Shown here piece after piece: positions 14,169 through 20,734 of a stretch of DNA of 24,178 nucleotides; the stretch's first letter is position 1; each line of letters opens with the position of its first letter. Source of the DNA: a virus; the IMG/VR virus record IMGVR_UViG_3300034375_004619, positions 1 to 24,178 of that record, one strand, 5' to 3'. The translations under genes and the position numbers were made by a program. The notes beneath the pieces were generated by a model. That model was not told the origin of the DNA. It searched no databases and saw nothing but the letters and a program-made list of their open reading frames with translations.

Positions 14169-15161
14169 ATGGATTATATTGATGTAAAGTACATCAATTT
14201 GATTTCCTCAAGACTTTCAAAATTCAAAAAGATTAAACCATATCTTTATAATTTTCGATGCCCTATTTGTGGAGATTCTAAAAAGAATAAAAATAAATCA
14301 AGAGGTTTTCTTTATAGGGTAAAGAATAATAGTAATTATAAGTGCCACAATTGTGGTATCAGTATTTCTTTCAATTCCTTTCTTAAAGATCTAGATACTG
14401 AAATTCATAAACAATATATTTTTGAGAAGTTTAAAGAAGGACATACCGGAAAAAACTTTGTGACTGAAACACCAGAAAGTATTTTTGAACAAGTTAAAAC
14501 CTCAAAACCAACTTTCACAACAAAAGTGAAAATTGAACTACCAAAAGCTTTTGATGTAGATGTATCTAAAAGGTATTTGGAATCAAGAGCAATTTTTGAT
14601 GGTGAATTTTATTATGTAAAAAATTTTAAAGAGTTTGTTAATTCTATTAAACCAGGAACATTTGATTCTACCAAGTATGGTGAAGAAAGAATTGTAATTC
14701 CACTTATTAGAAATAGGAAACTTATCGGAGTTCAGGGAAGAGCACTATCTTCTAACCCTGTTAAATACTTAACCATCATGTTGGATGAAGATGAACCAAA
14801 AATCTATGGGATTGATCGAGTTGATAAAGAACTTCCCGTCTATATCGTTGAAGGCCCCTTTGACAGCACTTTCCTCCCTAATAGTGTGGCTTTGTGTGGT
14901 AGTGACGGTCAAGTTAGTGATCTTGAAGGAAGCGACAAAGTTTTTGTATATGATAACGAACCCCGTAATAAAGAAATTGTTAATCGAATTGAACAGTGTA
15001 TTGAACGGGGAGAAAGTGTCGTCATCTGGCCATCAAACATAAATCAAAAAGACATTAATGATATGATCTTGGGTGGACATAATGTTCAAAATTTGGTAAA
15101 ATTGAATACTTACAAAGGATTGGAAGCAAAACTAAAATTTACTATTTGGAAAAAGGTATGA
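14169..15161 (+). CDS. 61: DNA primase, T4 gp61-like
   Basis: The primase makes RNA primers for lagging-strand synthesis with the gp41 helicase. An N-terminal zinc ribbon has C31-P-I-C34 and C59-H-N-C62. A linker precedes a TOPRIM domain that starts with IVEGPFDS (catalytic Glu) and continues to VFVYDNEPRN with metal-binding Asp. A QKDINDMIL segment follows. The length (330 aa) is close to T4 gp61 (342). It overlaps nrdA by 4 bases (ATGA). The sigma-70-type promoter immediately upstream suggests early transcription. Confidence 0.92.
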   Translation: MDYIDVKYINLISSRLSKFKKIKPYLYNFRCPICGDSKKNKNKSRGFLYRVKNNSNYKCHNCGISISFNSFLKDLDTEIHKQYIFEKFKEGHTGKNFVTETPESIFEQVKTSKPTFTTKVKIELPKAFDVDVSKRYLESRAIFDGEFYYVKNFKEFVNSIKPGTFDSTKYGEERIVIPLIRNRKLIGVQGRALSSNPVKYLTIMLDEDEPKIYGIDRVDKELPVYIVEGPFDSTFLPNSVALCGSDGQVSDLEGSDKVFVYDNEPRNKEIVNRIEQCIERGESVVIWPSNINQKDINDMILGGHNVQNLVKLNTYKGLEAKLKFTIWKKV

Positions 15162-16834
15162 CTAACGGTACAAAAGTTGTTAAGAGAAATGGTAATATTG
15201 AGTCTCTTGACCTGGATAAGATGCACCTGATGGTTGCAGAGGCTTGTAGGGGTCTTGCAGGGGTCTCTGCAAGTCAAGTGGAGATGACTTCTGGTATTCA
15301 GTTTTATGATGGAATTACCACGAAAGAAATTCAGGAGATCCTGATTAAGAGTGCGAGTGATCTGATTGATCTGGAACATCCAAATTATCAATATGTTGCT
15401 GCTCGACTTCTCTTGTTTTCTCTAAGAAAACAACTTTATGGTGTTATGAGAGATCATCCTTCACTTGTTGATCATATTCAAAAACTTTGTTATGATCACA
15501 TTTATGATAAGGAAATATTTTCCAAGTATTCTTTGGAAGAAATTCAAAAGGTAGAAACTTTTATTGATCATGATCGTGACTACTTGTTTACATATGCGGG
15601 ATTACGGCAGGTATCCGATAAATACTTAGTGCAGGATAGGAGCACTGGGGAGGTTTACGAAACTCCTCAGTTCATGTACATCATGATTGCTCTGACTATT
15701 TTCCAAGAGTATCCTAAGGAGACAAGACTTTCTTACGTTAAGAGGTATTATGACGCAATCTCCAAACACAAACTCAACATCCCAACACCAATCATGGCAG
15801 GGGTCAGAACACCCCTTCGTCAATTTGCATCTTGTGTTCTCGTTGATGTTGATGACTCCCTCGATAGTATCTTTAGCAGTGATATGGCTATTGGCAGATA
15901 CGTCGCACAGAGGGCTGGTATCGGCATTAACGCTGGCAGAATCCGTGGTATCAACAGCAAAATACGAGGTGGCGAGGTACAACATACAGGCGTTGTCCCC
16001 TTCCTTAAAAAGTTTGAAGCAACTGTCCGATGCTGTACACAGAACGGCATCAGAGGTGGTTCTGCTACAGTTCACTTTCCTATCTGGCACAAAGAAATAG
16101 AGGACATTCTTGTTCTTAAGAACAACAAAGGTACAGAGGACAACCGAGTTCGTAAACTAGATTATAGTATTCAAATCAGTAAACTCTTCTATGAACGTTT
16201 CATCCAAAATGGAGAAGTCTCACTCTTCTCTCCACACGACGTTCCTGGTTTGTATGATGCTTTTGGTACTGATCGATTTGATGAGTTGTATGTGGGTTTT
16301 GAACGAGATGACTCTATTCCGAGAAAGACTATCGGAGCTCAAGAACTCATTCTGGACCTTCTGAAAGAAAGAGCAGAAACAGGTCGAATTTATATCATGA
16401 ATATCGATCATTGTAACTCTCACTCCTCCTTTAAGGATAAGGTTGAGATGAGCAACTTATGTGTTGCTGGTAATACAAAGATTAAAGTAAGAATTACTAC
16501 TACTAAAGAAGTTGTTGGCAATACAACAAGCACATATCGTCTTCCTCCCCTTGAAATTGAAATTCAACAACTTCAAGAATTTATTGAAGAAGGTTTGCCT
16601 TTGGATTGCATAGAAGTTCTTTCTCGTGATATTGACACTGGTAATCAAGAAATTGATTATCATCAAATAACTGCATTTGCTCAAACATCACCAAAAGCAA
16701 AAGTAATGAAAATTACTGATGAAGAAAGTGGTAAGAGTGTTGTTGTTACTCCAGATCATAAAGTTTATACAAAAAATCGTGGATATGTGATAGCAAAACA
16801 TCTTAAAGAAACTGACATTCTAAATATTATTTGA
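15158..16834 (+). CDS. nrdA: Ribonucleotide reductase large subunit, N-terminal half fused to N-intein
   Basis: This is the first half of a fractured nrdA. ATG 15158 overlaps the primase stop and is preferred to the in-frame TTG 15146. Residues 1-434 are the N-extein. They contain an ATP-cone-like domain (about 1-95) and the redox cysteine C226 (FASC), equivalent to E. coli C225. The extein ends MSNL, with the active-site Asn. From residue 435 the sequence is an N-intein of 124 residues, and the frame stops there. On its own this protein lacks the thiyl-radical cysteine and the second half of the barrel, so it must be joined to the 17563 product by trans-splicing. Spliced NrdA would be 765 aa, near T4 NrdA (754). 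Confidence 0.93.
   Translation: MTNGTKVVKRNGNIESLDLDKMHLMVAEACRGLAGVSASQVEMTSGIQFYDGITTKEIQEILIKSASDLIDLEHPNYQYVAARLLLFSLRKQLYGVMRDHPSLVDHIQKLCYDHIYDKEIFSKYSLEEIQKVETFIDHDRDYLFTYAGLRQVSDKYLVQDRSTGEVYETPQFMYIMIALTIFQEYPKETRLSYVKRYYDAISKHKLNIPTPIMAGVRTPLRQFASCVLVDVDDSLDSIFSSDMAIGRYVAQRAGIGINAGRIRGINSKIRGGEVQHTGVVPFLKKFEATVRCCTQNGIRGGSATVHFPIWHKEIEDILVLKNNKGTEDNRVRKLDYSIQISKLFYERFIQNGEVSLFSPHDVPGLYDAFGTDRFDELYVGFERDDSIPRKTIGAQELILDLLKERAETGRIYIMNIDHCNSHSSFKDKVEMSNLCVAGNTKIKVRITTTKEVVGNTTSTYRLPPLEIEIQQLQEFIEEGLPLDCIEVLSRDIDTGNQEIDYHQITAFAQTSPKAKVMKITDEESGKSVVVTPDHKVYTKNRGYVIAKHLKETDILNII
16460..16831 (+). other. N-terminal half of a split intein (124 aa)
   Basis: It begins at Cys1 in block A (CVAGNTKIKV). 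Block B, TPDHKVYTKNRGY, carries the TxxH histidine that activates the first splice bond. It has no endonuclease domain and ends NII-stop. The matching C-intein is at 17563-17661. Confidence 0.93.
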
Positions 16835-16863
16835 TTATTATAGGAAGTGTAATGTCTATATTT

Positions 16864-16871
16864 TATAAATA
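16864..16871 (+). promoter_or_regulatory. T4-type late promoter in the hairpin loop
   Basis: A perfect TATAAATA lies in the loop of the inverted repeat. With the usual spacing the start falls near 16877, leaving only the right arm in the late transcript, 18 bases before the endonuclease ATG. Confidence 0.82.
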
Positions 16872-16876
16872 GTTAT

Positions 16877-16890
16877 GAGATTACACTTCC
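16877..16890 (+). repeat. 14-base copy of the nrdA sequence next to the intein insertion point
   Basis: GAGATTACACTTCC is identical to 17668-17681 in the C-extein, which starts 6 bases after the splice junction. It overlaps the predicted late start site and the right arm of the hairpin. The inverted arm repeats 11 of these bases on the other strand. Confidence 0.9.
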
Positions 16891-16894
16891 TATT

Positions 16895-17569
16895 ATGAGA
16901 TCATATATTGTGTATAAAATTACCAATAAGAAAAACGGAAAATCTTACATAGGAAAAACTGAATACTCTTTAGAGCATCGTTGGAATCGTCATTTATCAT
17001 CAGCAAGAAATGGTTCTAAATTTAGATTTCATTCTGCGATTAGAAAATATGGTGAAGATTGTTGGGACTTATCAGTGATTGAAAACTATCAGACTGAAGA
17101 TGAAAATTTTATCAATGAAAAAGAATCGCACTTTATCAAACTTTTTGAAAGTGATACTAAAAGGGGATATAATGCTACTTCAGGTGGAACTGGTGGTTGG
17201 ATGCTTCCCAGATGCTCACAGGAGGTTCAGGAAGAATGGAAAACTGGTATTTCTATAAGAACTACTGGTTATAATAATCCAAATTATTCTGGACTCACTG
17301 ATGAACAACTTATAAAAATAGGAATAAAATTTGCTAAAAAGTATGGATTTATTGGTGGCAGAAAAAGAATAGTTGATTTTGCTCTTAACGAATTAAATAT
17401 AAAATTTCCAAAACATTTTTCCAAAAATAGATTTGGGGGAAAGCATCAAAACTTTTATAAATGTATTGAAGAACAAACTGGATTAGTGTATAATCCTTAT
17501 TATAGAGATGAAACACAGAGAAAACTTGCTAAGCAACTTTTAGAACAAAACAGGAGAAAAAAATGCTAA
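16895..17569 (+). CDS. Free-standing GIY-YIG homing endonuclease in the nrdA gap
   Basis: The N-terminal nuclease domain carries the GIY-YIG signature. Y7 (IVYKITN) and Y18-I-G are followed by an Arg in HRWNRH (29 or 32), E77 (NEKESHF) and N93 (GYNATSGG). These match the catalytic Tyr, Arg, Glu and Asn of I-TevI. The C-terminal region (about 130-224) is basic with helix-turn-helix-like segments and probably binds DNA. The expected job is to cut intein-free nrdA and spread the locus by repair copying. It ends by overlapping the C-intein ATG, and its last codons hold that gene's AGGAG. Its leader has an inverted repeat and a late promoter, as in I-TevI. Confidence 0.88.
   Translation: MRSYIVYKITNKKNGKSYIGKTEYSLEHRWNRHLSSARNGSKFRFHSAIRKYGEDCWDLSVIENYQTEDENFINEKESHFIKLFESDTKRGYNATSGGTGGWMLPRCSQEVQEEWKTGISIRTTGYNNPNYSGLTDEQLIKIGIKFAKKYGFIGGRKRIVDFALNELNIKFPKHFSKNRFGGKHQNFYKCIEEQTGLVYNPYYRDETQRKLAKQLLEQNRRKKC
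17552..17556 (+). promoter_or_regulatory. Ribosome binding site for C-intein-NrdA
   Basis: AGGAG lies 6 bases before ATG 17563, inside the endonuclease gene. It fixes the start of the second nrdA half and shows it is translated as its own protein. Confidence 0.8.
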
Positions 17570-17661
17570 AGATTGAATATCTCGAAGAAGAAATCCCAGT
17601 ATATGATATTACTGTAGAAGGAACTCATAATTTCTTCGCAAATGATATTCTAGTTCATAAT
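17563..17661 (+). other. C-terminal half of a split intein (33 aa)
   Basis: Blocks F and G are clear: VYDITVEGTHNFFAN, then ILVHN. The His-Asn ending supplies the residues for Asn cyclisation, and Cys at +1 accepts the N-extein. The length of 33 suits a classic split position. Confidence 0.94.
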
Positions 17662-18657
17662 TGCCAAGAGATTACACTTCCAACTAAACCCCTTCAACAT
17701 ATTGATGATGAGTATGGAGAGATTGCACTTTGTATTCTTTCTGCTATTAATGTTGGTAAGGTTAAGTCTGATGAAGAACTGGAAGATCTCTGTGATCTTT
17801 CCGTTCGTAGTCTTGAAGAACTCATCGACTATCAGGAGTATCCTGTAAAGTCTGCAGAACTTGCCACAAAGGCTCGTAGGTCTCTTGGAGTAGGTTTTAT
17901 TGGTTTAGCACATTACTTGGCCAAACTGGGATATAATTATGATTCTCAAGAGGCGTGGGATGCTGTTCACGGACTTTCTGAGTCTTTCCAATATTACCTC
18001 TTGAAATCCTCTAACCAAATTGCTAAGGAAAAAGGTCATTGTGAATACTTTGGTAGAACCAAGTATTCTGATGGTATTCTTCCCATCGATACATATAAAA
18101 AAGATGTAGACGAACTCTGTTCACAGGATTTGAAACATGATTGGGAAGGTCTTAGAACATCTATCACCACTTACGGTCTCAGGCACTCAACATTGTCGGC
18201 ACAGATGCCATCGGAGAGCAGTTCCGTTGTGTCAAATGCAACCAACGGAATCGAACCACCTAGAGACTACCTGTCCATTAAAAAGTCGAAGAAAGGACCT
18301 CTTAAGCAGATTGTTCCACAGTATTCGACACTGAAGAATAATTACACTTTGTTGTGGGAAATGCAAAGTAATAAAGGTTACATCAATATTGTTGCCGTGA
18401 TGCAGAAGTTCTTTGATCAGGCTATCAGTGGTAACTGGAGTTATAATCCAGAAAATTATCCAGATAATGAAGTTCCAGTTTCACAGATGGCAAATGATTT
18501 TTTGACTACATATAAGTACGGGTGGAAGACTTCTTACTATCAGAATACTTACGATATCAAGACTGATGAAATTGTTGAAGAGAAGTCAGATTTACAAAAC
18601 CTACTAGAGGAATTAAGTAACACAGAGGAGGAAGCTTGTGACAGCTGTTCAATTTAA
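17563..18657 (+). CDS. nrdA: C-intein fused to ribonucleotide reductase large subunit, C-terminal half
   Basis: Residues 1-33 are the C-intein; residues 34-364 are the C-extein. The C-extein begins with Cys, Gln, Glu (CQEITLPTKP). This Cys is the equivalent of E. coli C439, the thiyl-radical residue, and the Glu equals E441. The second redox cysteine lies 23 residues later (IALCILS), the same spacing as C439 to C462 in E. coli. KTSYY carries the radical-transfer tyrosine pair (Y730/Y731 equivalents). The C-terminal CDSC matches the mobile redox cysteines. After splicing, NrdA reduces ribonucleoside diphosphates with NrdB. The 3' end overlaps nrdB by 20 bases. Confidence 0.94.
   Translation: MLKIEYLEEEIPVYDITVEGTHNFFANDILVHNCQEITLPTKPLQHIDDEYGEIALCILSAINVGKVKSDEELEDLCDLSVRSLEELIDYQEYPVKSAELATKARRSLGVGFIGLAHYLAKLGYNYDSQEAWDAVHGLSESFQYYLLKSSNQIAKEKGHCEYFGRTKYSDGILPIDTYKKDVDELCSQDLKHDWEGLRTSITTYGLRHSTLSAQMPSESSSVVSNATNGIEPPRDYLSIKKSKKGPLKQIVPQYSTLKNNYTLLWEMQSNKGYINIVAVMQKFFDQAISGNWSYNPENYPDNEVPVSQMANDFLTTYKYGWKTSYYQNTYDIKTDEIVEEKSDLQNLLEELSNTEEEACDSCSI
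17668..17681 (+). repeat. nrdA copy of the 14-base sequence; probable part of the homing site
   Basis: GAGATTACACTTCC encodes E-I-T-L-P of the NrdA active-site loop, starting 6 bases after the splice junction. It matches 16877-16890 exactly. Confidence 0.85.
18625..18631 (+). promoter_or_regulatory. Strong ribosome binding site for nrdB
   Basis: GAGGAGG lies 6 bases before GTG 18638, inside the end of nrdA. It decides the GTG start. Confidence 0.85.
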
Positions 18658-20266: not shown

Positions 20267-20734
20267 GTGGCAAAGAGTAAAGATTATTCAAATCCTTGGA
20301 CTTACATGGAACGAACTTTTGATAGTATTGATGTTGGGGATTACTTTGGTTTTGTTTACCTCATTACCAATCTCACAAACCAACGACAGTACATTGGGAG
20401 AAAATACTTTTGGTCGTTTAGAACTCCTAAAGGAAAAAAGAGAAAAGTAAAACAAGAATCGGATTGGAAAAAATATTATGGATCTTGTCCAGAATTAAAG
20501 GAGGATGTGAAAAAATTTGGAAACGAGAACTTTAAAAGAGAAATTCTTTCTTTGCATGAAACTAAAGGGAGAACAAACTTTGAGGAGACTCGACAATTAT
20601 TTGTAAATAATGTCTTGAGTGAATCTCTTGACAATGGGGAACCGAAGTATTATAATAGCAACATCCTCGGTCGTTACTACCGCAAGGATTACTTTGAGTC
20701 GTGTGAAGGATTAAATCCTTGTGACGAATGTTGA
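20267..20734 (+). CDS. GIY-YIG family endonuclease-like protein (155 aa)
   Basis: A short GIY-YIG domain is visible: GFVYLITN (28-35) and QYIGRKYFW (41-49), then a basic KGKKRKVK stretch, WKKYYGS and KKFGNENFKREIL. It lacks the long DNA-binding tail of the gap endonuclease, so it may be a degradative nuclease, a Seg-like mobile enzyme or a domain with another role. GTG 20267 is chosen because it keeps an N-terminal NPWTY segment before the domain; ATG 20306 is the alternative. It overlaps the lysozyme-like gene by 7 bases. A perfect sigma-70 promoter lies inside it. Confidence 0.72.
   Translation: MAKSKDYSNPWTYMERTFDSIDVGDYFGFVYLITNLTNQRQYIGRKYFWSFRTPKGKKRKVKQESDWKKYYGSCPELKEDVKKFGNENFKREILSLHETKGRTNFEETRQLFVNNVLSESLDNGEPKYYNSNILGRYYRKDYFESCEGLNPCDEC
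20628..20656 (+). promoter_or_regulatory. Perfect-consensus sigma-70 promoter inside the GIY-YIG gene
   Basis: TTGACA at 20628-20633, a 17-base spacer, then TATAAT at 20651-20656. The expected start near 20663 is about 65 bases before the lysozyme-like gene. It overlaps coding sequence, so it could be chance, but full consensus with ideal spacing is rare. Confidence 0.6.

Follow-up and report, generated by a model that had tools for sequence, protein, structure and literature searches.

The stretch of DNA analysed here (the window; IMG/VR record IMGVR_UViG_3300034375_004619, 24,178 nt) derives from a T4-like marine virus and carries a fractured nrdA gene, in which fusions of NrdA to the N and C halves of a split intein (IntN and IntC) lie around the gene for a free-standing GIY-YIG homing endonuclease (Table 1). 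The three genes are co-directional, with gaps of 60 and -7 nt and the endonuclease frame embedded in the transcription unit of another gene; since they run in the same direction, any message that starts upstream and makes the C-terminal part of NrdA carries the nuclease frame as well. The predicted structure of the endonuclease (mean pLDDT 66) has a GIY-YIG-like alpha/beta N-terminal part and C-terminal helices. The same nrdA site is found in relatives as intein-less alleles and with contiguous (cis) inteins that have no nuclease (L243, L244, L250), and the nuclease within the intein site may be exchanged for an HNH enzyme (L255) or for either of two other GIY-YIG types (L257, L262); this nrdA intein slot is reused by unrelated nucleases. 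A search of the INPHARED collection for annotated isolates carrying the cassette returned none, the best tblastn identity being about 44%.

Table 1. Features of the split nrdA locus and of the endonuclease leader, in window coordinates.
Feature	Position	Strand	Remarks
NrdA N-terminal part + split-intein N half (IntN)	15146-16834	+	Pfam ATP-cone, Ribonuc_red_lgN, Ribonuc_red_lgC 1-213, Intein_splicing
Left arm ATAGGAAGTGTAAT	16840-16853	+	Doubles as an inverted near-copy of the insertion-site sequence in nrdA
T4-type late promoter TATAAATA	16864-16871	+	Inside the hairpin loop
Predicted late transcript start	16876-16878	+	Inferred from box spacing and T4 late-promoter geometry
GAGATTACACTTCC, candidate operator/homing-site mimic	16877-16890	+	14/14 copy of the C-extein start
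Right arm ATTACACTTCCTAT	16880-16893	+	Followed by a single base (16894) and the endonuclease ATG (16895); no Shine-Dalgarno sequence
Free-standing GIY-YIG homing endonuclease, 224 aa	16895-17569	+	PF01541, E=7e-12
Shine-Dalgarno AGGAGA for the IntC-NrdA gene	17552-17557	+	Within the endonuclease 3' end
Split-intein C half (IntC) + NrdA C-terminal part	17563-18657	+	Overlaps the endonuclease gene by 7 nt
GAGATTACACTTCC in the C-extein, beside the intein junction	17668-17681	+	Codons E-I-T-L-P

The first-pass annotation had described a perfect 14-bp inverted repeat ending one base before the endonuclease ATG, with a late box in its 26-nt loop (16854-16879), and these coordinates were confirmed. 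With two mismatches allowed, the repeat lengthens to 20 nt (18/20; 16837-16856 and 16877-16896) and extends into the ATG; the IntN-NrdA stop codon (TGA, 16832-16834) stands 5 nt ahead of the left arm. No canonical Shine-Dalgarno sequence lies at a usable distance in the 3' arm of the window family, an SD-like AGGAAG being placed in the left arm instead. With the right arm lacking such a sequence, it is the start region, and not a canonical ribosome binding site, that would be occluded. Comparing the folds of long and short leaders, as had been proposed, gave -24.9 kcal/mol for the RNA of 16829-16908 against -11.35 ± 2.48 for 200 dinucleotide shuffles, none of which was as low (z -5.46), and structure at chance level for the predicted late leader starting at 16877 (z -0.01 against shuffles). 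A stable hairpin over the translation start is thus predicted on long transcripts only, and the late promoter is so placed that transcripts from its predicted start would lack the 5' arm. The TATAAATA box occurs five times in the window, always on the + strand, where 2.2 occurrences are expected. Among the seven window genes preceded by the box form NATAAATA, which was used for this comparison and for the late-promoter scan below, the endonuclease alone has a strong hairpin (-25.2, the others -3.9 to -9.4). No intrinsic terminator was found at the hairpin. Within the left arm, a mini-ORF (ATG TCT ... TAG) was rejected as not conserved, most haplotypes having ATT, and the sole match to a known RNA family, a sub-threshold microRNA hit (E 0.085), was taken as chance.

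The nuclease is encoded at 80 IMG/VR loci, and about 75 related loci keep the leader. In pairwise comparisons of the deduplicated, ungapped leaders, the left arm diverged by 3.0%, the right arm by 5.6% and the loop by 8.5%, with TATAAATA invariant (0%) inside the loop; fourfold-degenerate nuclease sites diverged by 25%, and the 60 nt upstream of the leader by 54%. This low divergence of the leader against the high divergence upstream indicates that the conserved unit starts sharply at the left arm and travels with the control region. Pairing was retained in 96% of the 252 inner pair cells of 18 distinct arm haplotypes (226 Watson-Crick, 17 G-U and 9 broken). The comparison across relatives suggested by the first-pass annotation therefore bore it out in that the arms stay complementary and the box unchanged, but not as regards compensating changes: the arm haplotypes of the close family contain no double change, and pairs are kept through G-U about as often as they are broken, so that covariation within it is no evidence for or against pairing. 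The arms of the L052 group (GGGAG/CCTCC) were considered as compensatory and rejected, since in register they give a G-U pair beside an A-C mismatch. L090, a divergent locus, shows two GC-to-TA double changes in a perfect 17-bp stem, which could also have arisen through template-switch correction of the palindrome. The same endonuclease locus (L090 4265-4975; also L127) has its late box altered to TATAACTA and its reading frame shifted near the N-terminus, and is a decaying or misassembled copy.

Leaders of the same design, with independent sequences, are also found ahead of other endonucleases, both in the nrdA slot and at other sites. The GIY-YIG nuclease of L262 is 43% identical to that of the window and its leader is unrelated in sequence; its stem pairs the late box, here in the left arm, with GGAG-N7-AUG and hides both the Shine-Dalgarno GGAG and the AUG, an arrangement similar to that of the GIY-YIG leader in L322. 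The same nrdA slot is occupied by HNH-NUMOD3 nucleases in L255 and L324, whose leaders form a strong stem that conceals AAGGAG and the AUG and has CATAAATA in its loop; the pattern recurs in HNH homologues at other sites (L342, L349, L351, L356, L357 and L358). Sequestration of a canonical Shine-Dalgarno sequence in the 3' arm, which does not occur in the window family, is found in L255, L262 and L342-L356. In the aligned HNH leaders (L342-L357; four distinct rows, with a weak shuffle control), 97.4% of pair cells pair and two cells break; six pairs have changes on one side that leave them paired, and two pairs are changed on both sides. No hairpin of this kind precedes the short GIY-YIG nuclease that L257 carries in the nrdA slot. 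These independent leaders support the reading of the window leader as a hairpin with an internal late promoter. Other matches to AAGTGTAAT...ATTACACTT that had no box were mostly unrelated. A single contig (IMGVR_UViG_3300013795_000128) holds two palindromes of the AAGTGTAAT/ATTACACTT type (L107 13-60 and L122 2579-2627) that are nearly identical to each other, with TATAAATA present on both strands; they are apparently a repeated element of another phage.

We then scanned 2.0 Mb of T4-like phage DNA (19 virus records) for NATAAATA, the late promoter of cyanomyoviruses (PMC2984593), at 8-45 nt before an ATG, and scored each of the 314 distinct genes found by how strongly the start region pairs with the part of the leader that precedes the predicted late start. 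Homing endonucleases, of several GIY-YIG and HNH kinds, made up 11 of the 12 strongest leaders. With endonucleases assigned by Pfam and the window family counted once, their median score was -10.25 (30 genes), against -6.8 for 280 others (Mann-Whitney p = 1.4e-5); the contigs had been selected for carrying nrdA or these nucleases, and the difference held when the seed families, which had led to the contigs, were left out (p = 2.3e-4). Scores of -16 or lower were reached by 6/30 endonucleases and 4/280 others (p = 8e-5), one of the four being GIY-YIG-like. Many endonucleases in the scan have no strong hairpin. SegE-type GIY-YIG genes, which are widespread in these phages and of which the window has one at 20267-20734 (PF19835, 184 bits), have a late box and no hairpin (-4.8 to -9.1); the window copy may be a resident nuclease that is no longer mobile. 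Together with these hairpin-less genes, the scores indicate that the design belongs to some mobile nucleases, and not to late genes or to all nucleases. Two further leaders were noted, both read on the - strand: at L392 955, a non-nuclease gene (MANQIIIDIGAVANDGTG...) has a late-box leader hairpin as strong as those of the endonucleases, and at L369 18794, where the product resembles a PD-(D/E)XK endonuclease, the late box pairs with the bases preceding the ATG.

The anatomy of the leader, its conservation and the recurrence of its design in unrelated leaders are direct observations. As their best explanation we consider it quite probable, on the sequence evidence, that the leader is a switch of the kind known from I-TevI and Aeh1 mobE, which prevents synthesis of the nuclease from long messages and permits it from messages with a late start. 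The 54-bp leader would be a portable expression switch that moves with its endonuclease. Long messages started upstream, which are needed for both halves of NrdA and presumably read through early in infection, would fold into the 14-20 bp hairpin, the 3' arm of which abuts the endonuclease AUG and would block initiation. At the late stage, TATAAATA in the loop would be recognized by the phage sigma factor, which would start a message near 16877; such a message would have no left arm, its start would be open and the nuclease would be made.

The arms also resemble the nrdA insertion site. The arm core GAGATTACACTTCC was compared with 55 distinct intein-less nrdA junctions and matches them in one fixed register with a mean of 10.9/14, above the maxima of 20,000 shuffles (10.38) and of 1,304 real 14-mers of the endonuclease gene (9.36). 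A tracking of the local extein by the arms at synonymous sites was considered and rejected, the arm being fixed while the extein varies. A sequence like the presumed homing site lies at the late promoter, and its parallel with the I-TevI operator suggests that the palindrome perhaps serves as an operator too. In an autorepression acting on DNA, either alone or alongside the RNA hairpin, the arms would be two inverted operators, one on each side of the late promoter, to which the endonuclease would bind by virtue of their likeness to its presumed homing site in nrdA; I-TevI is likewise a repressor of its own late promoter. The match to intein-less junctions above controls, perfect in the window, is consistent with this, as is a conservation of the arms in sequence that goes beyond pairing alone; in T4, the I-TevI operator shares 15/20 nt with the homing site and overlaps the late promoter (PMC2988022). 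Against it, the mimicry is absent in L090, L262, L322 and L255, which keep the hairpin design, and the match at individual loci is often just 11-12/14. We regard autorepression as a possibility that deserves attention, short of being the expected outcome. Somewhat more doubtful is the proposal that one palindrome performs both jobs known from I-TevI, hiding the early start as RNA while its arms, as DNA and as inverted copies of the insertion site, serve as operators for repression of the nuclease's late promoter by the nuclease itself; were this dual role true, target recognition and self-control would be written in the same bases.

The position of the leader raises other explanations. Across 26 distinct combinations of IntN tail and gap, the IntN stop lies 4 ± 1 nt ahead of the stem (2-5 nt in 25/26), even where the C-terminal tails of IntN are wholly unrelated; this spacing may matter for ribosome traffic, or may reflect simple packing. 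It would suit a translational coupling in which the folded stem brings the ribosome that terminates on IntN to the endonuclease AUG for re-initiation, and there is a precedent in T4 genes 25 and 38, where stems shorten the spacing (PMC3014915). Those genes have a Shine-Dalgarno sequence upstream of the stem, which is missing here, close packing alone could yield the spacing, and coupling leaves unexplained both the invariant promoter in the loop and the Shine-Dalgarno sequences hidden in analogous leaders; we judge it improbable. A still poorer account makes the hairpin a processing site at which RNase III or E would cut the nuclease message away from the nrdA messages. A long, nearly perfect stem speaks for it, yet the stem is short for RNase III, and the late box in its loop would go unexplained. 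The conservation boundary exactly at the left arm and the resemblance of the arms to the insertion site would also be expected of a mobility scar or cassette end, that is, of a copied target sequence in which the promoter lies by accident. To this we give hardly any credence, as the leader is under purifying selection with TATAAATA invariant and independent leaders of the same geometry precede unrelated nucleases.

If the leader is the expression switch that we favor, a control familiar from just a few T4-type endonucleases would be extended to a split-intein element in marine phages, and unrelated selfish nucleases would have repeatedly acquired a leader with a late promoter in a hairpin. A general rule that can be tested follows, namely that any nuclease inserted into an essential early gene must have a switch by which it stays off on the early message, and the copies of the homing site in the arms open a cheap and direct route to testing self-repression.

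The first-pass annotation had drawn its analogy with T4 I-TevI, and the likeness is upheld by the features that the window shares, or is predicted to share, with this enzyme of the td intron: a GIY-YIG nuclease, a hairpin on early and middle transcripts only, a late promoter at the hairpin and an operator resembling the homing site. I-TevI differs in being intron-encoded and in having a canonical ribosome binding site in the stem, and its single operator overlaps the late promoter, whereas the window has two inverted copies that flank the promoter. The annotation also knew of no such control between split-intein genes. Our literature search likewise found no description of this split-intein version, several key papers lying beyond its reach, but there is a closer precedent in mobE of Aeromonas phage Aeh1, on which Gibb and Edgell reportedly published in 2007 and 2009. 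The mobE gene lies co-directionally in a split nrdA, with a hairpin over its start and late-promoter messages without the 5' arm (PMC2988022). It thus has in common with the window an endonuclease gene inside nrdA, the hairpin over the start and the late promoter; it differs in that MobE is an HNH enzyme, no split intein joins nrdA-a to nrdA-b and the hairpin sequesters a canonical ribosome binding site, and no copies of the homing site in the arms are reported in that review (PMC2988022). The order of an IntN-gene half, an endonuclease and an IntC-gene half is shared with other fractured genes. Dassa et al. in 2009 are said to have described such genes, with split inteins flanking a free-standing endonuclease, and to our knowledge expression control was not a theme of their work. 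A survey (PMC3653736) counts seven intein-interrupted nrdA subunits in that metagenomic work. F-CphI and the psbA intron of cyanophage S-PM2 (collaborative homing) likewise pair a free-standing endonuclease with a separate splicing element; there the element is a group I intron and not a split intein, and the literature searched describes no hairpin and late-box leader. The type of control is therefore already known, including from the split nrdA of Aeh1; new are the split-intein setting, the 3' arm without a Shine-Dalgarno sequence, the homing-site copies as arms and the comparative evidence pointing to repeated independent use across T4-like marine phages.
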